A stretch of 62,207 bases of DNA from Rubripirellula obstinata (GTDB lineage Bacteria; Planctomycetota; Planctomycetia; Pirellulales; Pirellulaceae): NCBI RefSeq assembly GCF_001642955.1, contig NZ_LWSK01000023.1, positions 1-62,207 on the forward strand, in the 5' to 3' direction. Below the pieces are notes generated by a model. It was not told the origin of the DNA. It saw nothing but the letters and a program-made list of their open reading frames with translations, and ran no database searches. Shown piece by piece: positions 1,856 to 36,747 of the stretch (the stretch's first letter is position 1; every line of letters begins with the position of its first letter). The translations under genes were made by a program, and so were the position numbers.

Positions 1856-3853
1856 CTACGGGCTGCTGGCAGCCAGAACCGGTTCTTTGGCGATCAGCAT
1901 GTTCAGCGTTTCCAGCAGTGTGCCCTTTTCGACCTGCACATTTTTAGCCGCGACCGTGTACTCAACCAAAGACTGGTAGTACCGCGTTTGAGCTTCACTG
2001 ATCCGACGTTGCGAATCAAGCAGTTGTTCCAGGTTGACCGGCAGACCCGCGTTTCGGTTGGCCTCCAGAACTTGCAAAGCCTCGCTTGCAGCCAAGTAAC
2101 GGCTGAGGTTGGTTTGCGATTGCACGAGCGCTCGATCACATTCCGCAACGACCGACGCGAGATCGTGCAGAATCTGTCGCTGCTGTTCTTGCAGGATCGC
2201 TTCGGCCCGCGAGATCTGAAACTTAGCGTGCCGCACGGCTGCATGAGCTTGCCGAAAACCGACCGGCATTCGCATCTCTAAGTTGGCTTCATATTCTTGG
2301 AAGTCCATCGTGCCGATTTCACCCAACGCACTGTTGTCGCCGGCGAGGTTTTGATCGAGCCCACGAATGCGGTAGATCGTGACAAGATCAAGGGTTGGCA
2401 TCAGGAAATTCCGAGCCGCCAACAGTTCCATCTCGCGACGTTTCACCAGCAACCGTTGTTGCTGCAATTCGCTTCTCATCCGAACAGCTTCCGCCGAAAT
2501 CGAATCCCAATCAAAGATCATCGGTGCTTCGTGCGGTTCATCAGCGGGTCGAATTAAGTCGGATTCAGTAATCGGCAATCCGATCAACAAACGCAATCGG
2601 CGTTCCGCGGCCAACACTCCGCCTGCGCCCGCAAAGCTGCCGCCGGTGCTGGCGTTGCCCGCCGAAGTTCGCTGAACAACCTTACCCGCGATCGCATCTT
2701 GCAATTCGGACTCAAACCGAAAGTACTGTTCGCGTGCCAGCGCTTCGGCGGCACCCGTTCGACGGTTGCTTGTTTTCTGAGCTTCGTAGCTCTTCCATGT
2801 CTCGCGAGCACGATCGAGCGATTGTCGCTTGGCATCCAGATCGCGATAGGCAAAGTACAGATCCCAGTACGCGTTGATGACGTTGCTTAGATAATCGCGT
2901 GTCTGTTGTCGAAACTCTGATGCCGTGATGTCGTTGTTGACTTTGGCGATCAGGACTCCGTTGTAAACGCCTGGTTCCGCTCCTGGACCGGCAATACGGT
3001 TGAACGCCAAACCGCCACCTTGCATCAGCGGCTGTCTCGCCTCCGCATGCAATTGACTTTGCCAAGCACTCGGAAATTCGTTGCCGGTCGCGTTGTTGGC
3101 GTCGTAGTCGGTGACGCTGCGAAGCGCGAACTGGGCACCCGTGGCGGTTCGCTTTGAAATTTGTGCAACGTAATCATGCGTGTCTTGTTGGAACGCATTG
3201 GATCCACCGCCAAAGAACCGGTTGTTGAATTGGCGGTCGTTGTTTTGCCACTTTCCAAGCGCATAGAACTGGGCGTCGAAAGCTGACAAAGCGGCATCAA
3301 CACTCGTCTGAGGATCCGTTTCCACCAATGCTCGATTTTCGCGTGTCGCGGTCGCGTCAGGGTTTCGCAAAACGCGTGCCCCAAGATCGCGAAGTACCTG
3401 CGAATGAGTCAGTGCGAGTTCGACCGATTCGCCAAGCGTCAGTTCACGATAAGTCTGGTCGTCCCAATCCACACTGCGAAGTGTTTTCGGTGGCGATGAG
3501 TACTCGCTAAACGTTTCCGGCGGTGCTCCCGCATCCACATTGCACATCAGCGCGTCGATGCAGGCTGTGTCGTTGCCGATCGTGCTGGCCAGATCGTGGT
3601 AGCCGTTTTTGCGAGCTTGATGGCATCCGACGGACGGAGCCAGCAACACCGTCGCTGAAAGCAATAGACGCAGGCCGAGCAGTTTCCCCGTAGCGGATTT
3701 TGTTAAAGATCCAACCAGATTAGGATCTTTAACAAGATCCACTACCTCAGAATTGAAGTCAGACCGCCAACCCCGCTTTGACCAACCCAGCATCAATCGG
3801 CGCAGCGGATGCCGTCGCTGCGAGTTTTTGCGGGTCGGAAGGAGTCGAAACAC
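1856..3853 (-). CDS. TolC-family outer-membrane efflux lipoprotein
   Basis: Up to 665 residues. A hydrophobic stretch ending LLAPSVGC looks like a lipoprotein signal with the modified Cys, so the mature protein would be anchored in the outer membrane. The rest is long alpha-helical TolC-like sequence with two OEP-type repeats (VINAYWDLYFAYRDL and later QRQILHDLASVVAECDRAL). It is a paralogue of the TolC gene at 27952: both share SAFDAQ, FALR and YNGVLIA patches in the same order. The start is unsure: ATG 3853 and ATG 3793 both give a long basic leader before the signal, and a later non-ATG start is possible. It is divergent from the adaptor genes at 4095 and likely supplies their outer-membrane channel. 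Confidence 0.85.
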   Translation of the reverse strand: MFRLLPTRKNSQRRHPLRRLMLGWSKRGWRSDFNSEVVDLVKDPNLVGSLTKSATGKLLGLRLLLSATVLLAPSVGCHQARKNGYHDLASTIGNDTACIDALMCNVDAGAPPETFSEYSSPPKTLRSVDWDDQTYRELTLGESVELALTHSQVLRDLGARVLRNPDATATRENRALVETDPQTSVDAALSAFDAQFYALGKWQNNDRQFNNRFFGGGSNAFQQDTHDYVAQISKRTATGAQFALRSVTDYDANNATGNEFPSAWQSQLHAEARQPLMQGGGLAFNRIAGPGAEPGVYNGVLIAKVNNDITASEFRQQTRDYLSNVINAYWDLYFAYRDLDAKRQSLDRARETWKSYEAQKTSNRRTGAAEALAREQYFRFESELQDAIAGKVVQRTSAGNASTGGSFAGAGGVLAAERRLRLLIGLPITESDLIRPADEPHEAPMIFDWDSISAEAVRMRSELQQQRLLVKRREMELLAARNFLMPTLDLVTIYRIRGLDQNLAGDNSALGEIGTMDFQEYEANLEMRMPVGFRQAHAAVRHAKFQISRAEAILQEQQRQILHDLASVVAECDRALVQSQTNLSRYLAASEALQVLEANRNAGLPVNLEQLLDSQRRISEAQTRYYQSLVEYTVAAKNVQVEKGTLLETLNMLIAKEPVLAASSP
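3701..3734. repeat. 12-bp inverted repeat at the tolC 5' end
   Basis: TGTTAAAGATCC at 3701-3712 is exactly matched in reverse by GGATCTTTAACA at 3723-3734, with a 10-base spacer. It lies in the N-terminal codons of the minus-strand TolC reading frame if the longest start is used, or in its leader if translation begins later. It could be an operator or an RNA hairpin. Confidence 0.7.
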
Positions 3854-4094
3854 GGCTTCAGAATCTCATTGCGCGGATTGTCGGCGGCCACGCTTGTTCA
3901 AGCGCACTGTTCTTATTGTCGAACCAACCCGGGCAACCGATCCAATCAATTCATTCGGAATAATCGTTACAGTGCGGCTGGTGTGACAGATTTGGAACTT
4001 CTGCGTGAAACTGGGAGTCTGAAAAGCGAACTCGCCCACGTCGCAGCTAAACTGAAGACTCGCTTGTTCGCGTTCGCCTGAATCGCCTTTTCCA
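3854..4094. promoter_or_regulatory. Divergent intergenic region between tolC and adaptor genes
   Basis: This 241-base gap separates two divergent transcription units and must carry both promoters if they are separately expressed. I see no clear -35/-10 pair, riboswitch or strong ribosome site. Open frames here are weak and unlike known proteins. Confidence 0.35.
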
Positions 4095-5879
4095 ATGCTT
4101 TCACCCGACTCCTTCGCTAGCCAAAATCGCGACGACCACGACGAAATGTGGCGGGACGCTGAAGATCTGATTGATCGTATGGATCGCCGATCGCGTCATT
4201 GCGATGACCAGTCCCAATTTGAACAGGAAGTGGCCGAAGCACTTCGGAAATTCAGTTCTTGCAGCGGCGTTTCAATTCAAAAGCGATGCCAGAATGAATC
4301 GCTGGTCGTTGCAAAGTCGGGGATTTCTATTTTCCAGGGCGATGAACTAGCCCGCGATCCATCCAGGCATTTGATCGTCAGCCAAAGTCTGACGGAGACA
4401 ACCGATCTTGAAACTCAGTTGTGTTTTGAGAAGCCAGTCACGACACAGCAAAAACGTGTTTTCACGGAAACCATGCGTGCGCTGACTAACATCCTGATTC
4501 CCGTTGTTTTGCGGCGCGAAATCAGCGTTGTTTCCGATGCAATGCAAAGCCTTGATCGCGACCACCAACTGGTGGAATCACTCTTTGCCGGATCAACGGT
4601 CAACGAAACGTATCATTCAATTGCCAAAACTCTCGCCACGTTGACGCACACTGACCGGGTTTGCATCGTTCGCGCGAACCACCGAAAACACAGTATCGGA
4701 CGGCTTGTTGCATCGTCGGTTCCAACCGACATCGACCCTCGTGCTCGACAAGCACAGGATTTGGTGCGATTGATCCAAGACGATCACACACGCGATCAAT
4801 ACATCCAAGAAAACGCAGTACAGCAAATATATGTCGAACCCATTGCCGATCACGACAACCAGGTTTTGGCGTGGGTTGTTTTCGAGCAGTACGACGACAC
4901 GGAAACAGCAATTGCTCCGATCGCGATTCGTTTCGCGCCGCATCAAGACCTCGCTCACCGAGCAGTCAAAAACGCCATCGCTCGCGAAATCGCTGGACCT
5001 CGTTCCGCTGCCAAAACCCTCGCCACCGTCACACCGATTCGTTGGGCACAGATCCTGGCGGTAGCCGCCGTCGTATTTTTGGCGATGTGGTTGGTCAAAG
5101 TTCCATTGAGGCTTTCGGTTCCCGGTCGAATCGCTGCAGCGGCGATTGTCACGAAGCATTCGCCAACCAACGGGTTTGTCACCAAAGTCCATGTGGCTGA
5201 TGGCGATCGGGTTACGAAAGGCATGCCGCTGCTGCAACTGCACTCACCCGAACTTGAACTCGTCGCTCAACGTCTTTCGAGTGAATTGGCGACGACAACG
5301 ACCAAGATAGATACGCTGAAATCGGTTAAGCGGAATGCAGGCGACAACCAAACATCGGCTGAGCGGATGGTTCTGCAAACGGAAGCCGATGGAATTCAGC
5401 GACAACTGGAACTTGTGCGTCAAGAACAAGAATCACTTGTGCTGCGAAGCACCATCGCCGGCATCGTCCGACAATGGGATGCCAAGGAATCACTTGCTGG
5501 TCGCGTCGTCGTTATCGGCCAACCACTTTTGGAAATCATTGACCCAGCCGCCGGTTGGAATGTTGAACTCGACATTCCCGATGATCAGGTTGGCTACCTA
5601 GACGATCAACAAAAAGCAAAGCCGACTTGCTCCTTTCGAGTCCTCTCGTCGCCGACTGAAGTCCACGAAGGCGTTTTGAATCATATCGATCAGGCAGCTC
5701 AGCTAAACGAGGCGGGACATTCGATTGTTCGTGCAGAGGTATCGATCGACACGGACCAAGCGAATCGCTTTCGCCGCGGAGCCAGCGTTGTCGCCAAAGT
5801 CGATTGCGGTCAGCGATCAGCCGCCTTTGTCGTGTTTCGCGGACTGGTGCAATGGTGGCGAACCCAGGATTGGATTTAA
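4095..5879 (+). CDS. GAF-like domain fused to HlyD-family membrane fusion adaptor
   Basis: 594 residues. Residues about 1-160 are helical and charged; about 165-300 resemble a GAF sensor fold; a single membrane segment follows at about 317-334 (QILAVAAVVFLAMWLVKV). The remainder is a periplasmic adaptor: a lipoyl-like half (GFVTKVHVADGDRVTKGMPL), a short coiled coil, the second half (VLRSTIAGIVRQWDAKE) and a beta-barrel region. So a cytoplasmic sensor half is joined to a periplasmic adaptor half. The stop TAA overlaps the ATG of the next gene (TAATG at 5877-5881), which points to coupled translation. No ribosome site is obvious before the ATG. A cytoplasmic GAF on an adaptor suggests ligand-controlled export, which is inference. 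Confidence 0.8.
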   Translation: MLSPDSFASQNRDDHDEMWRDAEDLIDRMDRRSRHCDDQSQFEQEVAEALRKFSSCSGVSIQKRCQNESLVVAKSGISIFQGDELARDPSRHLIVSQSLTETTDLETQLCFEKPVTTQQKRVFTETMRALTNILIPVVLRREISVVSDAMQSLDRDHQLVESLFAGSTVNETYHSIAKTLATLTHTDRVCIVRANHRKHSIGRLVASSVPTDIDPRARQAQDLVRLIQDDHTRDQYIQENAVQQIYVEPIADHDNQVLAWVVFEQYDDTETAIAPIAIRFAPHQDLAHRAVKNAIAREIAGPRSAAKTLATVTPIRWAQILAVAAVVFLAMWLVKVPLRLSVPGRIAAAAIVTKHSPTNGFVTKVHVADGDRVTKGMPLLQLHSPELELVAQRLSSELATTTTKIDTLKSVKRNAGDNQTSAERMVLQTEADGIQRQLELVRQEQESLVLRSTIAGIVRQWDAKESLAGRVVVIGQPLLEIIDPAAGWNVELDIPDDQVGYLDDQQKAKPTCSFRVLSSPTEVHEGVLNHIDQAAQLNEAGHSIVRAEVSIDTDQANRFRRGASVVAKVDCGQRSAAFVVFRGLVQWWRTQDWI

Positions 5880-6973
5880 TGATGAGCAAAAACTTAAAAT
5901 ACAATCATCGGTTGGCGACCGTTTTCATTGCACTGGCACTATTCAGCCAAGCAGTAGCAGCCGATGAATATCGGGCAGACGATTTAGTCATCGTGCCGAT
6001 CGAATCGGTTGAAGTTCCCGCGACGCGCAGCGGTCGAATCACGGACATGCAAGCGAAGCCGGGTGACGAAGTGAGTCGCGGTGAACTGATTGGTTCGATG
6101 GATCATCGCCATGCGTCGCTTGCAATCGAGTTGGCAGAAAGCGAACTGCAAGTTGCACAAGAACTCTCTGGATCAGCGGCGGCGATCAACGCGGCAGACT
6201 CACAACTGCAAAGCGAAAAGCAAGCCGCGCGACAATTATTGATCACGCGTGATATCGCCAAATTGAAAGCCGAAAATGATTTGCGTGTGTTGGCGGCAAA
6301 GAAGTCAGAAGCGGTAGCGGAAAATGAATACCGCCGAGCCGCGGATTCTCGAAAACAGTATGCACAGAGCATCTCGAAATCCGAGATCGAATCACTAAAG
6401 CTGGTCGTCGATAAGAGTCGCCTGGAATCCAAGCAGGCTCAGTTTGAAAAACAAGTCGCAGGCTTAGAGGTCAAAGCTGAAACCGAAGCTGCTCGCAGAC
6501 AAGCTTTGGAAATCAATCACGCCGAAGCCGAAGTCAGTGCAGCGAAAACCGAGAACGCTATCGCAAAGCTACAAACAAAAAATCGACAGATTCAATTGGA
6601 ACTTGCAAAAGCCAGCATGGACGATCACCGAATCATCGCTCCCATCGATGGACGGATTACTAGGGTCTATAAATCGACAGGAGCCTGGGCCAACGAAGGT
6701 GAGTCGATCGCACGAATTGTTCTGCTGGATCGCTTGCGAATCGAAGGTTTTGCGCCGGTGGAACAACTGAATCAATTTCGGGCCGATGCGGCGATGGATG
6801 TAGAAATCGAAGTCTTCGTTGGGGGCGAAACGATTCAGCGAACGGGGAAAGTCGTCTTTATCGATCCTGAAATTGATCCCGTATCGGGCGAGTTCCGTTA
6901 TTGGATCGACTTTGAAAATGCGGACAAAACGATCCTGCCGGGTATGCGAGCGAGTGCAAGGATTCGGTTATGA
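5879..6973 (+). CDS. HlyD-family periplasmic adaptor with signal peptide
   Basis: The start at 5879 is chosen because it overlaps the previous stop and puts a clean signal peptide first (basic NLKYNHR, hydrophobic VFIALALFSQAVA, cleavage near AADE). The 364-residue product has lipoyl-like halves (GRITDMQAKPGDEVSRGEL and MDDHRIIAPIDGRITRVYK) around a long Ala/Glu/Lys coiled coil, then a beta-barrel ending in LPGMRASARIRL. This is the classical membrane fusion protein layout, likely bridging inner-membrane parts to TolC. The end overlaps the next gene by ATGA at 6970-6973. Confidence 0.85.
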   Translation: MMSKNLKYNHRLATVFIALALFSQAVAADEYRADDLVIVPIESVEVPATRSGRITDMQAKPGDEVSRGELIGSMDHRHASLAIELAESELQVAQELSGSAAAINAADSQLQSEKQAARQLLITRDIAKLKAENDLRVLAAKKSEAVAENEYRRAADSRKQYAQSISKSEIESLKLVVDKSRLESKQAQFEKQVAGLEVKAETEAARRQALEINHAEAEVSAAKTENAIAKLQTKNRQIQLELAKASMDDHRIIAPIDGRITRVYKSTGAWANEGESIARIVLLDRLRIEGFAPVEQLNQFRADAAMDVEIEVFVGGETIQRTGKVVFIDPEIDPVSGEFRYWIDFENADKTILPGMRASARIRL

Positions 6974-9033
6974 ATGGCGTCCCTCCGGCGAGCGCCCATC
7001 GGCCCAAGCTTCGTGGTGACCTGATTCATCGAACCATCGAAATGGGACAGGAACCGATGGTGGTTTGCAAGGATCCTCTTTCGCGAGCGTACCATCACTT
7101 CACGCAAAGCGAGTATGAACTGCTGCGTCTCGCCAATGGACATCGGTCGGTCCCTGAAATTTCGGCGGAACTGAAACAGTGTTATCCATCTTCTTTAATT
7201 GAATCAGACGCGGTCCAGCGATTCTTTGCACAAGCCTGGCAACAAGGTTTGTTGGAGTCTGAAAACGCATCATTGCCAAGTGCGTCTCGAAAAAAATGGA
7301 ATTGGCTCTCTCTGTTGGCGATTCGGTTTCCGGGTGTGAATCCAAGAACATTTCTGGACGCGATTTCACCGCTTGGCAGATTGGTTTTTGCGAAACCTGT
7401 TTTGATTGCTTCGGTCATCGCTGCACCGTTGTGCGTTATCGCTGTTCTGATGAAGTTTGATCATTTCGCATCTGACTTTTCTGGCATCACCGCGAATCCT
7501 TTTGGTTCACTGGTTTGGATCGCGATTGCCATTGCTGTATCCAAAGTCTTGCATGAACTTGGACACGCACTTGCCTGTCGCCATCTGGAATGCGAATGCC
7601 CAGCGATCGGTGTGATGCTTCTATTCGGAATCCCATGCCTGTACGCCGATGTTTCGGATGCTTGGATGTTGAAAAAACGCAGCCATCGAATGCTGATTTC
7701 TGCCGCGGGAATGTACGTTGAATGCTGGATTGCAATCCTGGCAACGTTGGTCTGGATGACCTCGAATCCAGGGCCCATTCATGATCTTGCCGTAACGTTA
7801 ATGGTCGTCTGCTCAGTTTCCACGATCCTGATCAACGGAAATCCGCTACTTCGATATGACGGCTACTATCTACTGTCCGATTTCACCGGCATCGCCAATC
7901 TAGCGTCCCGTTCCAAGGCGTCGTTGACCGCACGTTTCCAATCCATGCTTGGCAAGCCTGCACGAACCGATGAACCATTTTGGATGTCAGTTTTTGCTTC
8001 TGCCAGCTACGTCTATCGCGGCGTGGTGCTGGTTTCAGTGACGACGATCATCTTCCGATTCTTACAAGCCAATGATTCCGAATTGATCGGAATTTTGTTC
8101 CTGACAACCATCATGGCCGTCATTCTTTTGAACCAAGCAAAATCTTTTCGTCAGACTCAACTCACACGACTTGTACTGGCAGGATCGATCTTTTTCGCGG
8201 CCTTGTGGTATCCGCTTCCTCGCAGCGTCGTTGCACCGATGACAATCGTCCCGGCCAATGCGAAGCAGATCTATGTAACCGAGCCAGGCTTCTTGCAGAC
8301 GAAACCTGAATATGGAAAGCAGCTAGATGCACTGGATATCGTTTCGTCATTGTCCAACCCTGTCTTATTACGACAGCACGCAGCCGCAGTAGCCAGTCGC
8401 GATCGAATAGAAACCCTGTTGCAGTCGTACCAACGCTCTCGCGGCAGTCAATCACAATCACAGGCGATGATCCCATCGCTAGAAAAGGATCTGGAACAAG
8501 CCGATGTCTTGGTTGATTTCCACAACAAAGAACTTCAGCGTTTGAACATTGTTCCCGGCTCTGCTGGCAAACTCTATCCTCCGATGAACAGTCAAAGTCA
8601 GCCAACGGTTTCGCTTGTCAAAAATGCTGGCGACAATCGTGTGAGCAAAGTTGGAGCATGGATCAACGCTGGAACCCCCATCGGAATGATCGGCGACGAA
8701 CATCGCCGAGAAGCAATCCTCTACTTGCCCGATCGCGAAGTGTCGCGGATTGAATTGGGCCAAAGCGTGTCGCTGATGATAGGCGATGCAGCGAAAGGAT
8801 CGGTGGTCGGCACCGTTATCTCGATCGACGCATCACCCTGCCAGCATTTCCCAGAATCACTTTTGGTAAGCGGCCTTTCGGCAACCAGCGAAAACGTTTA
8901 TCGCGTCCGAGTACGACTGGAATCGTCTGGCGATGACTTGGTGGTCCATCGCGTCGGTCGCGCCAAGATTCAAGCAAGCCCCGAATCGATCACCCAGCGT
9001 CTCTTTCGCCTCATCAGTCAAACGTTTGGTTAG
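6970..9033 (+). CDS. PqqD-like / M50 metalloprotease / HlyD-like fusion protein
   Basis: 687 residues. Residues about 15-95 resemble a PqqD-type winged helix (peptide-binding in RiPP systems). Several membrane segments follow, holding the zinc protease motif HELGH (195-199) and the partner motif NPLLRYDG (291-298), both typical of site-2-protease (M50) enzymes of the YydH 'peptide zinc metalloprotease' type. After the last membrane segment (about residue 415) comes a periplasmic coiled coil and a lipoyl/barrel part (GTPIGMIGDEHRREA) like HlyD adaptors. All catalytic residues appear present. It ends a three-gene chain joined by overlapping start and stop codons. No ABC, RND or MFS pump lies nearby, so this protein may be the inner-membrane core of the exporter. 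Cargo is unknown. Confidence 0.8.
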   Translation: MNGVPPASAHRPKLRGDLIHRTIEMGQEPMVVCKDPLSRAYHHFTQSEYELLRLANGHRSVPEISAELKQCYPSSLIESDAVQRFFAQAWQQGLLESENASLPSASRKKWNWLSLLAIRFPGVNPRTFLDAISPLGRLVFAKPVLIASVIAAPLCVIAVLMKFDHFASDFSGITANPFGSLVWIAIAIAVSKVLHELGHALACRHLECECPAIGVMLLFGIPCLYADVSDAWMLKKRSHRMLISAAGMYVECWIAILATLVWMTSNPGPIHDLAVTLMVVCSVSTILINGNPLLRYDGYYLLSDFTGIANLASRSKASLTARFQSMLGKPARTDEPFWMSVFASASYVYRGVVLVSVTTIIFRFLQANDSELIGILFLTTIMAVILLNQAKSFRQTQLTRLVLAGSIFFAALWYPLPRSVVAPMTIVPANAKQIYVTEPGFLQTKPEYGKQLDALDIVSSLSNPVLLRQHAAAVASRDRIETLLQSYQRSRGSQSQSQAMIPSLEKDLEQADVLVDFHNKELQRLNIVPGSAGKLYPPMNSQSQPTVSLVKNAGDNRVSKVGAWINAGTPIGMIGDEHRREAILYLPDREVSRIELGQSVSLMIGDAAKGSVVGTVISIDASPCQHFPESLLVSGLSATSENVYRVRVRLESSGDDLVVHRVGRAKIQASPESITQRLFRLISQTFG

Positions 9034-9206: not shown

Positions 9207-12200
9207 CTATTCAAACAGACGGTCGCTGATGTCTTCGTTGGGTTGGGCAGGCCAGAGAATCACTTGCCCTTTTTTGCCTGCGGTCATCATCAGTCGGCCA
9301 TCGTCGGAAAGATCGATTGCGGTCACGTCGCTGCGATGTTTTTCGAGCGACAAGATTTCGCGGCCTTGTCTTGAATTGTTTTCGACGGCGGTTCTTGGAT
9401 CCCAGACTTTGACGGAGTCGTCAGCGGATGCCGTAAAGACTCGGTAGCCACCTTCAGCGTCGCCAGCAATCTTGATGTCTTCGATTGAATCCGCATGGCC
9501 TTCTAACTTGACCCACTGGTCTGACACCTGCGAAGCCTGGGATGGTTGGCCGAGCTTCCAAACCCTCGCAATGTCATCGTCGCCGCCAACCGCAACGTGG
9601 CTTCCGTCGTCACTAAAATCGCCGCAGCGAAGATTGACGCCCCGATCAGCGATGTCCAATGATTGAACTGCATTCTTCGATTTCTTAGAGTCAGCTTGAC
9701 GCAGATCAAGGATTCGAGCGACGCCGCCGTCTCCGCCTAGCAACAAACGTTTTCCGTCGCTGGAGTATCGAACAAAATTGAGATTTCGACCGGAATCCGT
9801 GTCGTATTCGCGTACCTGAACCGCAGACTGACCAGGCTTCCATTTCCAAAAACGCACGAAACCGTCATCACCACTGGTGGCAAATCGGTAACCATCGGCT
9901 TGGTTGGCGTTGGGCTGAAAAGTAATCGACCGAACGGGCCCCCGATGCGGCGATTCAATTTTCGCGACGGACTGGCCGGTACTTGAATCCCACAACTTGA
10001 CTGACCGGCTTGCGGTGGCAACCCATTTCCCGTCTAGCGAAAATGCAGCTTCGGTAAGTCCCGCATGCGCTCGATAGCTGTGCAGCAGTTTGCCTGTTTT
10101 CAGCTTCCAGTTGAATGCTGCGTTCTTGCTTAGCGTCATGCACCGTCCATCGGCGAGCGGAAACGCTGATTGAGCGACACCCAAACGATTGGGAATCGCA
10201 AAGGCTTGGTCCGGCTTTCCGGCAACCGCCTTTGATACATTCCTCCAAACCTTAATCGCCGACTTTTCGCCATCAACGGATTGGCAAACAACGACGCTGT
10301 GACCCGACTTGCCAAATGCTGCCGCGGTTACCCGGTTGCGGCGACGACTGCCAGTTCCGGGTGACTTTGATAAGTTACGTTCACTTCTAGCCAGCGTTAC
10401 TGGTCGCATTGTTTTCAGATCCCAAAGCGTTGCTCGGGATTTCAATTGTGATTCGGTCAGCAATTCGCTAACAGTGACGGCATGTTGCTGATCTCGTGAG
10501 AGCGAAATCTCAGTTACGAACCCGTCGTGGTTGAGTCGGCGGATGCTCTTTCGGCTTGTCAGATCAACTTGAGTCAACTGACCATCGTCGGCTCCCAACC
10601 AAAGCGATCTCGAATCGCTCGCAAACTGTGCCGCACCGATCCGAAATCCGCGAACATTTTCAATCGGCGGTCCGATCGGTTGACCCGTCGTGGCATCCCA
10701 AAGGATCCCGTAACCGATACTGTCACCGGTAAACAGCAATTTACCATCGCTGGAAACGGCCATCGCAGTGACAGCTTGATCATGCCCACGCAACTGGCGC
10801 AAGCGTTTCGCTTTGTTTTTTCCTGTCGGATCAACTTTCCACAGGACCGCTTTGATTTTCGGTGACGTTGATCCTGATAACAACAAAGTCCCATCGCCGG
10901 ACACCGCGATCGTATCGTTCAATCCAGTTCCAAAGACTTCAGCTTGTTGAATGCCGCGACCGATATCCCAAATGCGAACCGTTGAATCAGCGCTGCCAAT
11001 AAACAAGTACTTGTCCTGGTCATCAGTCGCCATTGACATTGCAACGTAAGCGGTGCCTTCGACGAGTCGGTCTGGTTGCAACCGAACGACATCGCGAAAC
11101 GAAAGTGTTTTGGGATCAATCGTCATCACCGCAGCGGTGTGGTCAGCACTGGCGGTCAAAACACGGGTGCCGTCAGGCGAAAATGTGGCAGACGAAATGT
11201 CGGCTTCGTGCGGCATCGCAGTGGTCGGCAATTCTGGCTCGACCGATTCGCCCACGTACGTCGTTGGATTCCAAACGCGAATCGATTGGTCCCGCGATGC
11301 CGAAATGATTCGCTCTTCGGATCCTTTGACGTCCAGATTTGGCACGAACTGAACTGCGGTGACCCAGCCACCATGCCCTCGCATCTTCTTCATTAGCTGG
11401 CCATCATCGACGTTCCATTTCTTTAGCGTGTAATCATTTGATGCGGTGACGATCGACTGTCCACTTTGGTCAAAAGCGATCGCGCGAACGATGTCGCGAT
11501 GAGCCCTTTCAGCGGAACTTGATCGAACAGAGACCAAAGTATTCTTTGCTACACCCTTGCGGTTGTTATCCAGTTCACTTTCCACGATGTCGCGATCAAT
11601 CAAACGAGCAAACTTCGTCGATGAATTCTGTTTGACTTCGCTTGGCCTCTTTCGCTTATCCGACACATTTGAAAGAGCGCTGGCGATCGCTGATTCATAA
11701 TCGATGGGCTTCACCTTCATTGGATTCCAAACGAGTACATTGCCATCGATATCGCCTGACGCCACGAGCAAACCTTGCGGGCTAAAGGTGACCGAAGAAA
11801 CGGGATGGTCGTGACCTCGAAATCCACCCAGCTTCGTTGGCTTCGCCAACATTGCACCCGGCGAGGAAACCGGCACCTTCCACAACTCAACGCTGCCAGT
11901 CGTATCGGTCGAAGTCGCCGCGGCAATCATCAGACCATCGCCTTGACGAACGGCATCAACGCGGACGACGGGTGAAGCGTGCCAGCCTGGTTTTGTCAGT
12001 TCACGCTTTTGTTGGACATCCCAAACGCGAACCGTGCGATCGGTAGAACCGCTGATCAGGTAACGTGCGCCAACGAATTTCAGATCGCTAACCGTCGTAT
12101 CATGCGCACCGATTTGGTAGGTCTGATCGCCGTCGATGATCACGACTTGGCCGCTTTGGTGACCAGTTGCCAATCGCCCGGGATCGCTCGACACGGCGAC

Positions 12201-14726
12201 AGCAGTGGCAGGATCGCGAACGGCCGAATCAACGAACTGGTCGGGCGTGACGTCTGCTCTCATTACGGGCAAGCCGTTTTTGGAAGCACTCCATCGTTTG
12301 ACTTCGCCGCCTTCCAACAACACTGCACCAAAATCACCATTGGCTGAGCTAGACAAATCGATCACCGCATCGTCTAGCTTGGTTTCGTTCTCGGCTCCGT
12401 CTGCCTGTCGCCACAACCAACGCCATTCCCAGCCCGTTGCGTAGGGAGATTTCTGTTTGAGTTCTTGTAGAATTTGGCGTGCGACTTCCGATTCATTTTT
12501 TTCCAGGCGAGCTTTGGCCAAGCCAATCTTTGACACATACTCTTCGTAGTTGGCACGTTTGGTGGCAGCGATTGCTTCGAGACGTTTTTGATCTGCATCT
12601 TCGCGGGCCTCTTCGGCAATTTGTTTTGCGAGCACCGCTTGTTTTTCGGCGGCAAGTGCCTTCCTTGCTTCATCGACTGCATTTTGTTTTGCTTTCGCCT
12701 CCGCTGCGGCAAGCTTGCTGGCTCGAAGTGTTTCACTTTCAGCAAATTTGCGTTGTTGGTCCGCCTCGATTTTCTCCGCTTCGGCGATCTTCGTTTGCTC
12801 TTCAGCGAGACCTGTCTGCTTTACCGCGATGGCTCTCTGCTGCTGAGCGATTTCCAACGCATCATTCGCTAAATTTCGTTTTTGGTTGATGAACCATAGC
12901 CCGATGCCACCACCGACGATGATGAACAGCAACATTGCTGCGGCCACCTTTTTCATCAAACGCAAACCTGCTTCTCGTGAAGCTCGCTGTTTCTTGCCTT
13001 CCCGCAAATCGTGGATGAGTTCTTGATGGTCACTGCGGTTTTCATCAAGCAGCGAAAGGCCGAGGTCAAAATCTTCTTTGGCTAGCGCCGCGTCGGCGTG
13101 ATAGATCAGCGTTTTGTCTAAGCCTTCCGCGGCCGGAACGTTTTCGCTCCATTGACGCAGCGCGGCTTCGTACTGATACCGTGCTTTTGAAAACTCTTCG
13201 TAAGAAGAATCTCGGATGCCGATTTCCAAGGACTGTGACGCTTGCCAACTCTGTTGGATGCTTCCGGCATGACGAACAAAATCACGAATCGCGTCGTGAA
13301 ATTCAGTCACGCTTTCGTAGCGGTCCGCCGGATCGGTTTCCATCGCGCGGTAAGCAATGTCCAGCAGTTCGCCACGGTGTTCTGCATCGACTTCGCGAAT
13401 TTTGTTTTCGCGAACGGCTTGCAAACATTCAGTTACCGTTGACGCATGGTGTGGTGCTTTGCCGGTAACGATCATGAACAAGGTCGCGCCCAACAAATAC
13501 ACGTCGGCAGCATTGCCGATTCGTTCGATCGGACCGGTTGCCATTTCAGGCGACATAAACGCTGGCGTTCCTCCTAAACCAGTGGACGTCAACAATGCCG
13601 AGTCTCGTTTTTCGGTGTAGCGAGCCGTCGGCAATGCCAGCCCCCAATCCATCACCATCACCACACCGAATTCACCCAGCATGATGTTCTCGGGTTTGAT
13701 GTCGCGATGAACCACGCCGCGAGTGTGTGCTTGAGCGATTGCGTCGCAAACTCGCATCAAGACTTCTAAGTTGTCGTCGACCGACATGGATTTGATCTGT
13801 TCAGACCAAGGCGTTCCGATGACCCGCTTCATGGAATAGAACAGGTCACCCTCGGGCGTCATCGCGACATCATGGATCGGAACAATGTTGGGATGATCCA
13901 AGTCACCGGTGACGATCGCTTCTGACAAAAATTGCAACCGTCGTTCTTGCTCGACTTCCTTTAACCGTCCCGTCTGCATCAACTTTTGACGGCGTTTGCC
14001 ATCGATCGGCTTGATCAACTTTAACGCAAGCAGACGATCGAGTGAGCCTTGGCGTGCGACAAAGACGTCCCCCATGCCGCCTTGGCCGAGTTTACGAATC
14101 AACCGGTAATCGCTATTGGTTTTTGGGTCAGTCTTTAGGGGTGCGAGTTCACAGACTCGCAATCGATCGAAATTGCGATCCGAAACCGTCTTGTCGATCG
14201 CTGGGGTTTCGTCCGTTTGACCACCGGCGGATACGCCTGCAGAAACCCCAGCAGAAAACGCTGTGGCGGAAGTGGACTCCATCTGCAAACCGTCGATCGT
14301 TTCCTCTGTTTCCATCCCACCAGCCGTTTTTCCACCAACCACTTGATCGACTGGAATATCAGCGACAACGGTTGCCCAGATTTCAGCATCTTTCCCGGTC
14401 AATTCACGAGCGTTGATCGTTGCCCCAATATCATCGCCCGCCATCAGCGATGATTTCATCTTGACGGTTCCCGATGAGCCACCGTCTTTACGAGATGGAA
14501 AATTGGCGGCCGAAGATGACGCTCGACTGGTTCCCCGTCGCACCGTTGTTTTGCGTTGTTCCTGCGAACGATCAATCGCCGAGCTATCGCGCGAATGATC
14601 AGGACTGGGCGTGTCTGCACCTGACGACGGTTCAATCGGCGTCGTCAATTCGTTGGAATTGATTTCCGTCGTCTTCTCAAGATCCGATGGATCGTCGGCG
14701 TTGTTATCTTTGTTTGGGTCAACCAT
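9207..14726 (-). CDS. Membrane Ser/Thr protein kinase with WD40 repeat tail
   Basis: 1839 residues from the ATG at 14726, chosen because it overlaps the upstream stop (ATGGTTGA) and is preceded by TTGGAAAG; an upstream in-frame start at 14867 would overlap the preceding gene by 149 bases. The first ~200 residues are low-complexity. The kinase domain spans about 207-483: glycine loop LGQGGMGDVF, LALKLI lysine, HRDIKPEN catalytic loop, MDWG in place of DFG, and GTPAFMSPE. A TPR-like helical part follows, then a membrane segment (about 595-613, LLFIIVGGGIGLWFI), an Ala/Glu/Lys coiled coil and roughly 1000 residues of WD40 blades (GHD...VWD/LWD patterns). Kinase inside and propeller outside is the expected topology. 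It probably senses or scaffolds envelope events; coupling to the surface protein suggests a shared role. Confidence 0.9.
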   Translation of the reverse strand: MVDPNKDNNADDPSDLEKTTEINSNELTTPIEPSSGADTPSPDHSRDSSAIDRSQEQRKTTVRRGTSRASSSAANFPSRKDGGSSGTVKMKSSLMAGDDIGATINARELTGKDAEIWATVVADIPVDQVVGGKTAGGMETEETIDGLQMESTSATAFSAGVSAGVSAGGQTDETPAIDKTVSDRNFDRLRVCELAPLKTDPKTNSDYRLIRKLGQGGMGDVFVARQGSLDRLLALKLIKPIDGKRRQKLMQTGRLKEVEQERRLQFLSEAIVTGDLDHPNIVPIHDVAMTPEGDLFYSMKRVIGTPWSEQIKSMSVDDNLEVLMRVCDAIAQAHTRGVVHRDIKPENIMLGEFGVVMVMDWGLALPTARYTEKRDSALLTSTGLGGTPAFMSPEMATGPIERIGNAADVYLLGATLFMIVTGKAPHHASTVTECLQAVRENKIREVDAEHRGELLDIAYRAMETDPADRYESVTEFHDAIRDFVRHAGSIQQSWQASQSLEIGIRDSSYEEFSKARYQYEAALRQWSENVPAAEGLDKTLIYHADAALAKEDFDLGLSLLDENRSDHQELIHDLREGKKQRASREAGLRLMKKVAAAMLLFIIVGGGIGLWFINQKRNLANDALEIAQQQRAIAVKQTGLAEEQTKIAEAEKIEADQQRKFAESETLRASKLAAAEAKAKQNAVDEARKALAAEKQAVLAKQIAEEAREDADQKRLEAIAATKRANYEEYVSKIGLAKARLEKNESEVARQILQELKQKSPYATGWEWRWLWRQADGAENETKLDDAVIDLSSSANGDFGAVLLEGGEVKRWSASKNGLPVMRADVTPDQFVDSAVRDPATAVAVSSDPGRLATGHQSGQVVIIDGDQTYQIGAHDTTVSDLKFVGARYLISGSTDRTVRVWDVQQKRELTKPGWHASPVVRVDAVRQGDGLMIAAATSTDTTGSVELWKVPVSSPGAMLAKPTKLGGFRGHDHPVSSVTFSPQGLLVASGDIDGNVLVWNPMKVKPIDYESAIASALSNVSDKRKRPSEVKQNSSTKFARLIDRDIVESELDNNRKGVAKNTLVSVRSSSAERAHRDIVRAIAFDQSGQSIVTASNDYTLKKWNVDDGQLMKKMRGHGGWVTAVQFVPNLDVKGSEERIISASRDQSIRVWNPTTYVGESVEPELPTTAMPHEADISSATFSPDGTRVLTASADHTAAVMTIDPKTLSFRDVVRLQPDRLVEGTAYVAMSMATDDQDKYLFIGSADSTVRIWDIGRGIQQAEVFGTGLNDTIAVSGDGTLLLSGSTSPKIKAVLWKVDPTGKNKAKRLRQLRGHDQAVTAMAVSSDGKLLFTGDSIGYGILWDATTGQPIGPPIENVRGFRIGAAQFASDSRSLWLGADDGQLTQVDLTSRKSIRRLNHDGFVTEISLSRDQQHAVTVSELLTESQLKSRATLWDLKTMRPVTLARSERNLSKSPGTGSRRRNRVTAAAFGKSGHSVVVCQSVDGEKSAIKVWRNVSKAVAGKPDQAFAIPNRLGVAQSAFPLADGRCMTLSKNAAFNWKLKTGKLLHSYRAHAGLTEAAFSLDGKWVATASRSVKLWDSSTGQSVAKIESPHRGPVRSITFQPNANQADGYRFATSGDDGFVRFWKWKPGQSAVQVREYDTDSGRNLNFVRYSSDGKRLLLGGDGGVARILDLRQADSKKSKNAVQSLDIADRGVNLRCGDFSDDGSHVAVGGDDDIARVWKLGQPSQASQVSDQWVKLEGHADSIEDIKIAGDAEGGYRVFTASADDSVKVWDPRTAVENNSRQGREILSLEKHRSDVTAIDLSDDGRLMMTAGKKGQVILWPAQPNEDISDRLFE

Positions 14727-17700
14727 TGCGTCGCTTTCCAAATCGGCTACTTCGCGACAAACGCGATCGGTTTTTAGTTGAGCGTCGATGTCGTTGCCAC
14801 ACGGCGGATTCAATCTGTCCGGCATTCTCGGACACGACCGCGGAACGTCGTTGACGTTTGGCGACAACAGTCCCCGTTACCGCCATGACGGCCGCGCCGG
14901 GCAGGTACGCGAGATCGAGATCAGTTTCTTGATCTGACTCTTGATCATCATTGCCGTCATCTAATTGCTCGTCCGGATTCGTTGGCAGATCTAGCGGCCT
15001 CAGTCGAAGCACACCTTCGTCAAGTTCATCATCGGGAATCGTGGCTTCGCCCTGACGAACTTCGACTCGTAAAATGGAGCGTTCGTTTCCATCCCCGACC
15101 ACCTTTTCAATTTCATAAGCTCCGTCGGGAAGTTGCGAAAACAACTTACGCAGTTGATCACCATCAAAAATATCCGCGGGCAGTTTTTCTGGTGCTACCA
15201 AATCTTCGCCATCCGGATCAGGAGAAAGAACTCGCAGTTGAAAATACTCCTCGCGGCTAACAATCGAGGTCGTCGGGACTTCGGCGACTTCTAAGGTCGA
15301 AGTCAACACTTCGACCGTCTGGTCGGTGCTGACAATTTGGTTGACAGGTTCAAATTCGGGGATCACATCGCGAACCGGGAAGAAGGCGACGGGAATGGTC
15401 AGGTTTGGAATAATAAAAGTCGCGGTTCCTGTTTCCAATTGTGGTCCCATGCCTGAATCCAGGTTGGTGGTCGGATTGTCGGTCGATGAGAGTAGCCCAC
15501 CAGCAACGGGAACCAGTTCGGCTTCGGGAGTGATCGATGAGCCTGTTTGAAAGACGCCGGCGGTCTCGCCTTCGACCAGACTCTGAACCACGATTGAATC
15601 ATGATGCCGAACAGAGAAACGAACGTTGTAAGGTTCCGTGGCAGCGGTTCGACCATTGGATCGGCTGTCGAGAGTGTCGCCTTCGAGATACAAATGCGTG
15701 AAACGAGCCGTTCCATCGCCGGTCGGTGAGTATTGAGTCACAGTGGGCTGGCCATCGCGCGCTGGATCAACTCCCACAAACGCATTCTGATTGGAATGCA
15801 GGTTGTCAACTTGCTGAAAGCGGCGAGGGTCCGAATCGCCCCAGTCGATCGTAACGGTCAGACCGCGTTCCCCGGGCGTGCCAACATTGACAGTCAAAAT
15901 TCCCGTTGCGTCGTTTTGCAATGCTTGAGTCAACACGTTGGTGCGAACACTGGCGGGATCAAAGAACGCATGGTCGATTCCGGCGTCGATCGCAGCGTCG
16001 ATCGCAGCGGTCGCTTGATCACCACCCGGACGTGGAAGAAATTGACGAGCAGTACCTTGGCCTTCGCCGGTAAACAGTTCCACGTTTTCACCGACATAGA
16101 ACTCATTGGTCGCTAGAAAAATTGTCCGCTCGGTTCTATTGCCACCTGGCTGAGTCAGATCACCAAGGGGCCGCGGTTGTGATGCTTGGTCAAGATCTTG
16201 GAAAAGCTTTTCACCGTGGATTTGCACATCGTCTTGCAAGCGGATCGTTGGGGCTTCCAAGTCAACGCGGCCAAATTCACCGAGTGCATCAATTTCAGGA
16301 TCGGCTTGCTGGTCTGGTCCAGCATCGCCCGTGGTGAGATCGACGACTTCAATTTCGGAATCGCTTCGAATGATAATCTGACCGTTTCCAGTTTGAATCG
16401 GGGTGATCGATTGCCCTGCTTGATTCGCCAATCCGCCCAATCGTAGCGGGTCGATCGTATCGACATGATCGATAATCAAATCACCGCGATTGCTTCCAAG
16501 GACACTGGCGGCCAAGTCATTAACATCGGTTCGCAGACGAATCGACGCGTCCTGATCGCCAGAAAGATTTGCAGCAGTCACGCTTAACTGTGTTGCTGAA
16601 ACAAGACTGTTGTCGTCGGGTCCAAGGATGTCATCGGAGGAAATCAGCGTCACCAGTCCTTCTCCGCCAACCGTGATTTCGTCAATCGACAGGTCCGATG
16701 CTACGCCGGTCGTTCGCAGCGAGATATTGCTGTCCGATGTGGTGACTTGTTGAATTCCAACAGACTGATCCCCCAGGAAAACGAGGTTCACATCTCCGGC
16801 ATCGCTGTTTGCGATTAGCTTATCCGTTCCATCAAGTTCCAAGACTTGCTGATCGCCAATCCCATTCGTCGCCGTCAACGTGACATTCGCGGCGCTCAAG
16901 TCTGTGTCCTTATTATTATCATTTTCGGCATCATCATTTTCGGCATCATCAATTCGGTCGGCGTGCAGGTTGATTGAATTGCCAGCCGCTTGGACGTTGC
17001 CGATCGCCAGGGCCCCCGCAGCCATCACGTCAACGTCCCCGGAATTTGAAATTAATGATTCCACCAACAGGTCATCTGCTGAATCAACCAAATCAATGCC
17101 GTCGCCTGCGACCAGGTCAGTGATCACTCTGAATTGGTTCGCGTTGTTCGCCAACCGGACCTCGCTCGTCACAACGCCCGCAAGACGATCCGCTTCGATT
17201 GTCGTTCCTGGTTCTTGGAAAACGCTGTTGAGTTCATTGCCAGTTGTGCCAAGCACCAACTGACCGTCGGTTGCAAAAGTGTCACCGAGATTCACTTGGT
17301 CAAAACCGGAAATCACAATGGCATCGCTGCTAGAATTACTGCGCAGCGTGCCCGCACTCGCGTCGAAGTCGCTGTTGTTTCCGCTGATCAGAATGCGGTC
17401 GTTACCGGAAAAAATTTCAGCTTGACCCCCGAGAATAAACCCCTGGGATGCTTCTACTTGAATATCGCCGCTGGCAGACGTGATGTCATTGATGACTGTC
17501 ACGTTGCCTCCGCTAAGCGAGACATCGGATGCGAAGATCATGGATTCGATATGAATGGCCGAGACGTCCTCCACGATCAATTCGCTTTCGAGCAACACCT
17601 GACTTCCTGCAAAGATGGTTTCCGAAGCGGACTGCACGGTTAGGGTGTTGAGCAATTGACCACCGCTGCCATCGACTTCGCCCAGCAAGACATTTCCTCC

Positions 17701-18453
17701 ACCCATCGCGATCCGCAGATCTACGTCGGACGCGTCGGTGCTGAGCGTAGAATCACTCAAATCAATTCGGCCCGCCCCTACCAGCGTTGTGTCAGACGAA
17801 AGAGTTGTTGGGCCATCGATGACAAGTTGGTTGTCAATTTGCAACTGCGGTGAAGTTAGGGCAGCATCGAATCGGACGGCACCGACAAGCTGGACGTCGG
17901 CTTGCCCCAATGACAGAGAATTTCCAGACGATGAAAGTGTGATTTGTTCAGACTCGGCGAACAGCGAACCGCTTGCCGGAACTACTGATTCGTTTAACTG
18001 CAACGTTGTCGTGTCGTTGCCGCCATCGCCCGACACAAAGACTTCCAGGTTGCCCAACAGCGGCGTTGAAATTGAATCGTTGCCCGAACCGAGCGCAACG
18101 AACACTTGACCCGACGTGATGGCGTCGGCAGAAAGTGGATTGAGTTCGCCAGCGATCCCGTCAGGATGACCGCTGATCGGAACAACTTGGTTGGGGTTTC
18201 CAGGATCGGTGTCATCAAAAATCTGTAGCGCCTGGTCGGAATCAAACTCAATGCGAAGCGAATCACCAAACTCGGTGCCCAGTAAAACCAGTTGCCCCAG
18301 GGGATTCAGTTCGGCACTGGCGTTGAGCACCAATCGCGGTTCCAGCCGACGGACACTCGGTGCCCAAGCTTCGATGGCGGTGCGTCGGTTTTGTTTTTGA
18401 ATCCGGCGGCTTTTAATCCAGCGGCTGCGCGACCTGAGAAACGAAAATGCCAT
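14719..18453 (-). CDS. Large surface protein with LEPR N-terminal signature
   Basis: 1244 residues. The N-terminus is strongly basic and then shows RRLEPRLVLNASAELNPLG (LEPR at 37-40), a signature of giant exported proteins in planctomycetes (LEPR-XLL type). The body is Asp/Ser/Gly/Thr-rich, with repeated short beta-strand units like filamentous adhesins (residues about 50-720), and a later calcium- or cadherin-like acidic region. Near the C-terminus a hydrophobic segment (LAYLPGAAVMAVTGTVVA) is followed by a long basic tail, a layout suited to membrane anchoring. A 15-base direct repeat (ATTTTCGGCATCATC, near 16919-16948) encodes a DDAEN duplication. The stop overlaps the kinase start by eight bases. 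Function as adhesin or cell-wall component is inferred. Confidence 0.8.
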   Translation of the reverse strand: MAFSFLRSRSRWIKSRRIQKQNRRTAIEAWAPSVRRLEPRLVLNASAELNPLGQLVLLGTEFGDSLRIEFDSDQALQIFDDTDPGNPNQVVPISGHPDGIAGELNPLSADAITSGQVFVALGSGNDSISTPLLGNLEVFVSGDGGNDTTTLQLNESVVPASGSLFAESEQITLSSSGNSLSLGQADVQLVGAVRFDAALTSPQLQIDNQLVIDGPTTLSSDTTLVGAGRIDLSDSTLSTDASDVDLRIAMGGGNVLLGEVDGSGGQLLNTLTVQSASETIFAGSQVLLESELIVEDVSAIHIESMIFASDVSLSGGNVTVINDITSASGDIQVEASQGFILGGQAEIFSGNDRILISGNNSDFDASAGTLRSNSSSDAIVISGFDQVNLGDTFATDGQLVLGTTGNELNSVFQEPGTTIEADRLAGVVTSEVRLANNANQFRVITDLVAGDGIDLVDSADDLLVESLISNSGDVDVMAAGALAIGNVQAAGNSINLHADRIDDAENDDAENDNNKDTDLSAANVTLTATNGIGDQQVLELDGTDKLIANSDAGDVNLVFLGDQSVGIQQVTTSDSNISLRTTGVASDLSIDEITVGGEGLVTLISSDDILGPDDNSLVSATQLSVTAANLSGDQDASIRLRTDVNDLAASVLGSNRGDLIIDHVDTIDPLRLGGLANQAGQSITPIQTGNGQIIIRSDSEIEVVDLTTGDAGPDQQADPEIDALGEFGRVDLEAPTIRLQDDVQIHGEKLFQDLDQASQPRPLGDLTQPGGNRTERTIFLATNEFYVGENVELFTGEGQGTARQFLPRPGGDQATAAIDAAIDAGIDHAFFDPASVRTNVLTQALQNDATGILTVNVGTPGERGLTVTIDWGDSDPRRFQQVDNLHSNQNAFVGVDPARDGQPTVTQYSPTGDGTARFTHLYLEGDTLDSRSNGRTAATEPYNVRFSVRHHDSIVVQSLVEGETAGVFQTGSSITPEAELVPVAGGLLSSTDNPTTNLDSGMGPQLETGTATFIIPNLTIPVAFFPVRDVIPEFEPVNQIVSTDQTVEVLTSTLEVAEVPTTSIVSREEYFQLRVLSPDPDGEDLVAPEKLPADIFDGDQLRKLFSQLPDGAYEIEKVVGDGNERSILRVEVRQGEATIPDDELDEGVLRLRPLDLPTNPDEQLDDGNDDQESDQETDLDLAYLPGAAVMAVTGTVVAKRQRRSAVVSENAGQIESAVWQRHRRSTKNRSRLSRSSRFGKRRNG

Positions 18454-35761: not shown

Positions 35762-36747
35762 TGAACTTGCCCCTTGGTGACGGACAGGAACACATCTTCC
35801 AGCGAACGGTCATCGCTTCGGTATTGCAAGACCCTAATACCGGCGTCCAACAATTCCTTCAGCAGATCCGCCTGCGTATCCTGGTCCCCAGTCATCGAAA
35901 CGAAAACGCGGCTACCGTCAACACGAAGCTTGGTAACGAATTCCTTCGCTTCCAATCGTGTGACCAGCGATTGTGTTTCTCCGATCATTTCAATGCAAAC
36001 GTGACGATGGGTTTTCGCATCGCCACGAATTTCATCCACCGATCCGGTCGCGAGCAGATGTCCCTGTTCGATGATGCCGACGCTATCGCACATCTCGGCA
36101 AGCTCCGTCAGAATATGACTGCTGACCAAAATCGTTTTACCGTCGGCGGCCAAGGTGCGAATGATTTTTCGGAGTTCGATTCGGGCGCGAGGATCAAGGC
36201 CGGCTGCGGGTTCATCCAGAATCAGCACCGAGGGATCGTGAATCAAAGCACGGCCCAAGCAAAGCCTCTGTCGCATCCCTTTGCTAAGCCCGCGGATCGG
36301 TTTATCCGCAAGCGGTCTTAGCCCGGTGAAGTCCATCACCCAACGCATCCGAGCGGTTCGTTGTCGGCCGATTAATCCGTGCGACCGTGCGTAGAAATCG
36401 AGGTATTCGGCACAGTTGGTGTTGCGGTAGGTTCCAAATGCGTCTGGCATAAATCCCAGGCGAGTCCGAACGCGATCAGGATCGTTGACCGAAGAAAGCC
36501 CTTCAACCCGGGCGTCACCTTGGCTGGGGATTTCCAAGGTTGCCAAGATTCGCATGCTGGTTGTTTTTCCAGCGCCGTTGGGACCGATGTAACCGAACAC
36601 TTTGCCGCGGGGGACGCTAAACGAAACGTTATCAACCGCGCAGGTCGTATCGAAATACCGCGAAACGTTTTGAAGTTCGATGACCGGTCCATCCCACGAT
36701 GTGTGAGGCGTGGTGATCGGGGCAGTTGCCACGTCGGCTTTATTCAT
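35758..36747 (-). CDS. ABC transporter ATP-binding protein
   Basis: 329 residues. Walker A GPNGAGKT at 55-62, signature LSKGMRQRL, Walker B SVLILDEPAAGLDP, and H-loop LVSSHILTEL are all intact. The C-terminal ~90 residues form a DUF4162-like extension. It powers the adjacent permease. Start and stop both overlap neighbours by four bases (ATGA at 36744-36747 and GTGA at 35758-35761). Confidence 0.93.
   Translation of the reverse strand: MNKADVATAPITTPHTSWDGPVIELQNVSRYFDTTCAVDNVSFSVPRGKVFGYIGPNGAGKTTSMRILATLEIPSQGDARVEGLSSVNDPDRVRTRLGFMPDAFGTYRNTNCAEYLDFYARSHGLIGRQRTARMRWVMDFTGLRPLADKPIRGLSKGMRQRLCLGRALIHDPSVLILDEPAAGLDPRARIELRKIIRTLAADGKTILVSSHILTELAEMCDSVGIIEQGHLLATGSVDEIRGDAKTHRHVCIEMIGETQSLVTRLEAKEFVTKLRVDGSRVFVSMTGDQDTQADLLKELLDAGIRVLQYRSDDRSLEDVFLSVTKGQVQ

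Follow-up and report, generated by a model that had tools for sequence, protein, structure and literature searches.

In a stretch of 62,207 nucleotides from Rubripirellula obstinata (NZ_LWSK01000023.1, positions 1 to 62,207; the whole of it is called the window hereafter), four genes encode a TolC-like outer-membrane protein (OEP), two HlyD-type adaptors and an inner-membrane M50 protease that also carries a PqqD-like domain and an adaptor-like tail. We consider it probable, on balance, that these genes form a trans-envelope machine for the export and processing of LEPR-XLL proteins, most of which are very large. The novel element is the cargo that we consider likely, namely giant proteins whose N-terminus bears a LEPR-XLL leader. 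The parts, the conserved active site, the PqqD-like domain, the adaptor folds and the linkage and co-occurrence with LEPR proteins are observed, and from these we infer leader binding, cleavage, export and the motor. The initial annotation had taken the unit for an exporter of a peptide or lipoprotein; given the linkage and co-occurrence described below, a giant LEPR-XLL protein is the likelier cargo. The main features are as follows, where window-type loci are the window and 12 same-genus regions (n = 13).

1856-3853, (-): OEP/TolC-like outer-membrane channel, probable lipoprotein, 665 amino acids (aa); PF02321, E 3e-14; in 13/13 window-type loci
4095-5879, (+): GAF-HlyD adaptor, 594 aa; PF16576/PF13437
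~5882-6973, (+): short HlyD/RND_mfp-type adaptor with a hydrophobic N-terminal segment; TIGR01730, 123 bits (cut-off 94.9)
6970-9033, (+): PqqD-like + M50 + HlyD-like inner-membrane protein, 687 aa; PF02163, PF13437
14719-18453, (-): proposed cargo, 1244-aa protein with LEPR leader and basic C-terminal tail; homologue co-occurrence
18325-18345, (-): LEPRLVL leader motif, residues 37-43 of the proposed cargo; kept in 9/9 readable homologue N-termini

LEPR proteins and the M50 loci of planctomycetes

The LEPR leader is a short, often basic sequence close to the N-terminus that contains the motif LEPRxLLSA, and its carriers are mostly very large proteins. Giant open reading frames (ORFs) with LEPR-like leaders recurred beside M50 loci. 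When matches to NF012209 (E<=2) were compared with the 31 M50 loci of six complete planctomycete genomes, 7 of the 60 matches lay within 10 kb of a locus, against 0.79 expected, and this number was reached in none of 20,000 circular shifts. The signal was weaker for the 28 matches above the curated cut-off, 3 of which lay within 10 kb (0.37 expected; 150 of 20,000 shifts) and 5 within 15 kb (0.53 expected; 4 of 20,000 shifts). NF012209 misses planctomycete leader variants, for example LEPRLVLNA and LEERRVLSV, and therefore LEPR proteins are probably undercounted there.

After cleaning, the LEPR motif was found in 22 of 99 M50 regions versus none of 20 control regions (p 0.011); the controls came from five of the six complete genomes, were scanned with a slightly looser pattern, and included one position shifted by hand to avoid an M50 locus. 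Cleaning reduced the M50 regions with a LEPR-pattern ORF from 26 to 22: the ORFs in L086 and L096 were rejected as shadow frames, and those in L090 and L106 were dropped for an N-terminus that we took to be integrase-like. LEPR-linked regions made up 14 of the 32 OEP-linked M50 regions versus 10 of the 67 others, a comparison based on 24 of 99 linked regions, with L056 and L058 added, where the fetched stretch stops just short of the gene start. The window's own genome has 3 NF012209 matches over the cut-off, 2 of them at M50 loci; one of these two falls in a 10,579-aa open frame with a LEPR leader that adjoins an OEP-HlyD-HlyD-M50 unit (L052, G000:C210 near 31886).

A 15-residue hydropathy mean above 1.6 was reached by 4 of 51 leaders, a set that includes two genes counted twice and was scored by hydropathy only, with no signal-peptide predictor. 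Judged in this way from sequence, LEPR leaders appear mostly to lack a strong hydrophobic stretch.

The LEPR protein of the window

The protein encoded at 14719-18453 (-) has RRLEPRLVLNASAEL, and at its C-terminal end a hydrophobic stretch precedes the basic tail. Among the 21 other genomes of the genus, 14 contain a homologue: it is found in 13/13 genomes with a window-type M50 gene versus 1/8 without (p 7e-5), a comparison that ignores kinship, as p is not phylogeny-corrected. Window-type M50 genes were defined by E<1e-100, a threshold that we chose at the gap between 1e-104 and 1e-72; in 12 of these 13 genomes all four genes were seen, and G002 was assigned by its M50 match only. The leader was retained in all 9 readable homologue N-termini (6 from the 13 unit-bearing genomes, and those of G014, G032 and G034), and the other 4 of 13 run off the contig end before the N-terminus. 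Only 3 of the 13 window-type loci have the LEPR gene next to the unit, so the pairing would be mostly in trans. The protein at 14719-18453 (-) is the best cargo candidate for the window unit.

Between the LEPR gene and the M50 gene lies an ORF for a Ser/Thr kinase with many WD40 repeats (9207-14867, (-)), which overlaps the end of the LEPR gene. The kinase-LEPR pair also stands beside the unit in G019 (L056) and G003 (L058).

Loci in other phyla and on plasmids

Of 80 named loci from several phyla, 38 contain a SecA-like gene. A leader ORF was seen within the fetched stretch of 15, a count that is unscreened for false matches and probably too low, as the fetched edge cuts several giant ORFs. 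In five further loci (Neptuniibacter, Seongchinamella, Puniceibacterium, Desulfomicrobium and Marinobacterium mangrovicola) the giant ORF cut at the edge proved, on a genome search, to be a LEPR ORF of 4588-8581 aa whose frame stays open up to a stop a short way upstream of the HlyD-M50 genes. Methylomonas sp. LW13 has the unit together with a LEPR-like gene, the latter recognized by pattern only. A search of 20 whole genomes found a LEPR gene adjacent to the locus in 9 (L205, L208, L230, L237, L239, L242, L243, L258, L270), which is not an unbiased rate because the genomes were chosen partly for an edge-cut giant ORF or a motif already seen. For L230, L237, L243 and L270 the adjacent gene is the sole match genome-wide at E<=0.5. 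The match of L205 is below the cut-off and that of L272 was found by pattern only; in L266 the LEPR sequence keeps its frame over 46 kb, yet the open frame reported is shorter, which leaves it uncertain, and that of L253 is on the M50 contig but more than 30 kb away.

The M50 query matched 38 plasmid records, of which 13 (>=35% identity, >=99% query coverage) were examined, leaving out H14 and H15 (27-30% identity, >=80% coverage) and 23 partial matches. All 13 have, at or close to the M50/HlyD genes, a giant ORF bearing the leader pattern [LIMY]EPRxLL[SAN]AD, and they do not represent 13 independent events because the query locus was already suspected of LEPR linkage and the plasmids share ancestry. 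One or two ORFs separate the giant ORF from the M50/HlyD genes in CP081100 and NZ_CP140808, and the variant YEPRLLLSAD of NZ_CP049043 was read by eye. NCBI names the giant gene "LEPR-XLL domain-containing protein" in 4 of the 13 records, and "PqqD family" is also used. The Thalassospira marina plasmid carries LEPR, DUF3467, HlyD, M50, HlyD and TolC genes with no SecA gene between them, and is thus a second SecA-less case.

In plasmids L323, L324, L328, L329, L330 and L346 the giant ORF is separated from the HlyD genes by a small DUF3467 gene; none was noticed in the window. Its product is a possible cargo chaperone.

The four-gene unit and its neighborhood

An ORF check together with the 12 same-genus regions bore out the layout proposed in the initial annotation: the four genes are intact at the coordinates listed above, the three plus-strand genes overlap or abut, and the OEP gene is divergent. 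The likeliest start codon of the short HlyD gene is the ATG at 5879/5882. The M50 start overlaps the HlyD stop as ATGA, and the GAF-HlyD/HlyD junction likewise overlaps or abuts. HlyD_3 was matched by Pfam on all three plus-strand proteins. In 12/12 same-genus regions around the best M50 matches, the OEP gene is divergent from GAF-HlyD, HlyD and M50. All four genes are kept in the window and these regions, as expected of one conserved gene set, and chance clustering is ruled out by the order retained in the 12 orthologous regions.

The claim that the locus lacks an ABC or RND pump also held: a scan of the window's first 20 kb and of the 12 orthologous regions turned up neither an ABC or RND gene nor a SecA gene (MFS genes were not searched), and an ABC/RND pump inside the locus was rejected for all 13 regions. 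Many ABC and RND genes occur elsewhere in the window's genome. An ABC ATPase gene at 35758-36747 (-), about 27 kb from the unit, shows no sign of belonging to it.

M50-HlyD relatives were present in 96 of 99 searched genomes, including that of the window, which has 7. Of 99 M50 regions, SecA_DEAD is encoded in 14, OEP in 32 and an ABC or RND protein of any kind in 7; for window-type loci the figures are 0/13 for SecA_DEAD and 13/13 for OEP. In a quick tree, the window M50 protein falls in a mostly OEP-linked clade, separate from a large, mostly OEP-free clade. SecA paralogues are present elsewhere in the window's genome. On G000:C286 (L055) a 713-aa ORF encodes a further SecA-like protein, and the 15 kb fetched there contain no M50 gene. 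Many relatives have matches of similar length, and such a protein is a candidate for the motor that SecA-less units would use in trans.

Glycosyltransferase, HAD hydrolase, amylase and sulfatase genes are neighbors in 8-9 of 13 loci and were rejected as cargo, being ordinary enzymes. A protein of ~235 aa is encoded beside the OEP gene in 12 of 13 window-type loci (L056-L067) and is absent from the window; the one copy scanned had no Pfam match. Where the others carry this gene, the window has an epimerase/DUF2867 gene (296-1786).

The M50 protein

The following parts were located in the protein encoded at 6970-9033.

7003-7257, (+): PqqD/RRE-like domain, residues 12-96; profile versus PDB, AlphaFold block with predicted local distance difference test (pLDDT) 84-96
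7552-7566, (+): HELGH zinc site, residues 195-199; H195, E196 and H199 invariant in 19 rows
7840-7863, (+): NPLLRYDG motif, residues 291-298, with D297 the expected third ligand; N291 and D297 invariant in 19 rows
8212-8988, (+): adaptor-like tail with barrel sandwich, alpha-hairpin 464-523 and beta barrel; Foldseek

Peptidase_M50 was matched by Pfam (PF02163, E 1e-6), and the AlphaFold model (mean pLDDT 87.9, predicted template modelling score 0.72) places HExxH in a long helix, 177-205. The intact M50 site that had been claimed was confirmed by the invariance of its zinc-site residues in 19 orthologues and paralogues. In addition, HExxH...N..D was present in 97/97 M50 genes picked by domain similarity from 101 regions. 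The M50 genes of L093 and L122 escaped ORF selection. The motif also occurs in 78 of 80 named loci and is invariant in a 76-row alignment, partly by construction because the scan patterns were these motifs and the rows were chosen by motif.

The Pfam PqqD family PF05402 matched the window protein weakly (E 0.08 for the whole protein and 0.0056 as a domain; 17.4 bits against a cut-off of 23.4), and 12 of 41 members matched at E<=0.01. When a 41-row profile of the domain was compared with PDB sequences, 6 matches at E<=5 were obtained (E 0.0015 to 1.2), and all 6 are PqqD or lasso-peptide B1/PqqD-type proteins; we take the B1 proteins to be RREs. The AlphaFold model of the domain has three strands and three helices (beta3-alpha3). 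By sequence profile and predicted fold the N-terminal domain is thus PqqD/RRE-like, as the initial annotation had proposed, and leader binding is predicted. The HlyD-like tail that it had described was likewise recovered by PF13437, and the top Foldseek matches of the tail were the adaptors MacA, MexA and AcrA.

The M50 protein scored 152 bits with NF041824 (daptide intramembrane metalloprotease), about half of the cut-off of 300, on which membership of that family was rejected, and 41 bits with NF058609 (epipeptide protease), also below the cut-off.

The GAF-HlyD adaptor and the TolC-like protein

A GAF-like sensor had been assigned to one adaptor. Pfam matched no GAF domain in the window copy, whereas PF01590 (GAF) was matched in 35 of 57 relatives, and the domain is probable. 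The AlphaFold model (mean pLDDT 86.5) has two alpha/beta domains before a helix at 314-333; on our reading of the model these domains are GAF-like, and the helix is a likely membrane anchor. The Foldseek rows shown were adaptor matches only and did not confirm a GAF fold for the two domains.

The TolC-like protein had been called a lipoprotein. A GC pair closes its N-terminal hydrophobic segment in 11/11 orthologues where this is visible (95 residues were printed, and the segment end was out of reach in L057 and L064), whereas the strict lipobox pattern was matched in 6 of 13. The sequences suggest that the OEP protein is a probable lipoprotein.

Proposed mechanism and alternative explanations

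Leader peptides dock onto RRE domains as an extra strand, proteolysis by M50 enzymes takes place within the membrane, and ducts are built from HlyD and TolC proteins. In the mechanism that we propose, the PqqD/RRE-like domain would bind the LEPR leader in the cytoplasm and the M50 site would cut the leader in or near the membrane. The M50 tail, HlyD and GAF-HlyD would build a periplasmic duct to the TolC-like channel, and the GAF-like domains may gate it or sense. The SecA-like ATPase encoded in the locus would probably drive transport in many relatives (38/80 and 14/99 loci). Since the window-type unit has no SecA gene, it would depend on a SecA paralogue encoded elsewhere, on another energy source, or on folding outside the cell.

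Several observations weigh against export of LEPR proteins by the unit, in addition to the kinship of the genomes and plasmids given with the counts above. The LEPR protein of the window was not matched by NF012209, its motif being recognized by reading, and its gene is not adjacent to the unit in 10 of 13 loci. G014 has a LEPR homologue but no window-type M50 gene, and there, as in G017, the matches to the two halves of the homologue fall on separate contigs. In the six complete genomes 53 of the 60 LEPR matches are away from any M50 locus, for 77 of the 99 planctomycete M50 regions the fetched sequence contains no clean LEPR ORF, and the largest planctomycete M50 clade is mostly LEPR-unlinked. 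Of the 20 genomes searched, 4 have no LEPR match and 6 others have LEPR elsewhere only; G107 and G114, both of this second group, carry a single LEPR match, on another contig than the M50 gene. The dependence may run through export, trimming, anchoring or regulation.

The main rival, which we consider unlikely, is a maturation or anchoring machine: LEPR proteins would leave by another route, and the unit would trim the leader and fix the proteins in, or deliver them to, the outer membrane. Such a role would suit an M50 protein that combines protease and adaptor parts with no pump family matched, window-type loci without SecA, and the hydrophobic stretch and basic tail of the window LEPR protein, as an anchored protein might have; the general lack of a strong hydrophobic segment in LEPR leaders speaks against it, and the SecA-like and TolC-like genes in the locus of several relatives fit transport. 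An exporter of a small peptide or lipoprotein, with incidental LEPR neighbors, is still less likely. PqqD/RRE domains do bind short leader peptides, and the M50 part resembles the daptide and epipeptide proteases, albeit below the family cut-offs. However, no small ORF that could encode a conserved precursor was found: among ORFs of >=40 aa, no family of <200 aa recurs in more than 3 of 13 window-type loci. LEPR genes, moreover, are linked to the M50 loci more often than expected by chance, and every one of the 13 plasmid loci examined shows the linkage.

Least probable, and in our view very improbable, is that these adaptors belong to conventional tripartite efflux or type I secretion and work with an ABC, RND or MFS pump from another locus, and that the M50 protein has a regulatory role. 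The HlyD and TolC parts do come from ordinary families and the genome has ABC and RND genes in plenty, but an ABC/RND gene was found in so few M50 regions (7/99), and in none within the three-gene run, the M50 protein carries its own adaptor tail, and the recurrent ATPase of these loci is SecA-like. Beyond the export and processing of LEPR-XLL proteins by the window unit, these loci may constitute a separate one-step secretion class over several phyla, a proposal that we put forward tentatively and would not yet call probable. In this class a PqqD/RRE-M50-adaptor protein would replace the ABC/RND/MFS pump, read and remove the N-terminal LEPR leader, and send proteins of up to ~10,000 residues through a TolC-type channel; many lineages would power it with a SecA-like ATPase, and the SecA-less branch (the window and the Thalassospira marina plasmid) with something else.

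Relation to known systems

The unit is not new as a list of parts, contrary to what the initial annotation implied. Kamneva, Poudel and Ward (2015; PMC4452313) described secondary SecA_DEAD genes beside genes for HlyD, M50 and GAF proteins, and sometimes OEP, in Planctomycetes, Verrucomicrobia, Proteobacteria and others, with no ABC gene in the locus as presented in the available parts of the paper. There SecA was proposed as the ATPase and M50 as a possible pore, and the role was called "completely unknown". Therefore, as far as those parts go, the layout without a pump was already known, and the SecA-less branch is a variant of the published locus. Both have M50-HlyD, HlyD and GAF-HlyD together, GAF in the window being assigned by relatives and model only. 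Window-type loci differ in having no SecA_DEAD gene (0/13) and always an OEP gene (13/13), and neither the PqqD-like domain nor a giant LEPR cargo is named in the available parts of PMC4452313.

Type I secretion and tripartite efflux share with the unit the HlyD-type adaptors and the TolC-like channel; they differ from it by the ABC or RND subunit, absent from the unit's locus (MFS aside, as above). Unlike in type I secretion, the proposed signal is N-terminal instead of C-terminal, and the inner-membrane part is a protease. The NF041824/NF058609 proteases share the PqqD-like and M50 core, the alignment covering residues 38-395 of the window's M50 protein, which scores half of the cut-off and carries an extra HlyD tail. 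The scanned neighbors were ordinary enzymes, in a scan not aimed at enzymes of ribosomally synthesized and post-translationally modified peptides.

The proteins of NF012209 (LEPR-8K) resemble the proposed cargo in bearing the leader motif on giant proteins. An LEPR-XLL protein of about 8000 aa has been reported in a Vibrio (PMC10868602), and the two papers using that name give no export route in the parts available. A literature search that covered few subscription papers found none linking LEPR-XLL proteins to the M50-HlyD locus. Planctomycetes are described as rich in "giant genes", with many products thought to be surface proteins, in the available part of PMC5177795, and the words "secret", "export" and "signal peptide" are absent from its text. 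PMC3482391, considered as related work, was unrelated as far as available.

Implications

The present results would join giant LEPR proteins with the SecA_DEAD/HlyD/M50 locus, which had no assigned role, so that each gains a partner. If our reading is true, the unit represents a type of protein secretion in which the leader is N-terminal, an RRE-like domain reads it, and an intramembrane protease stands in place of the pump. Strains in which the single detected LEPR gene stands beside the unit are the place where gene deletions can test this reading.

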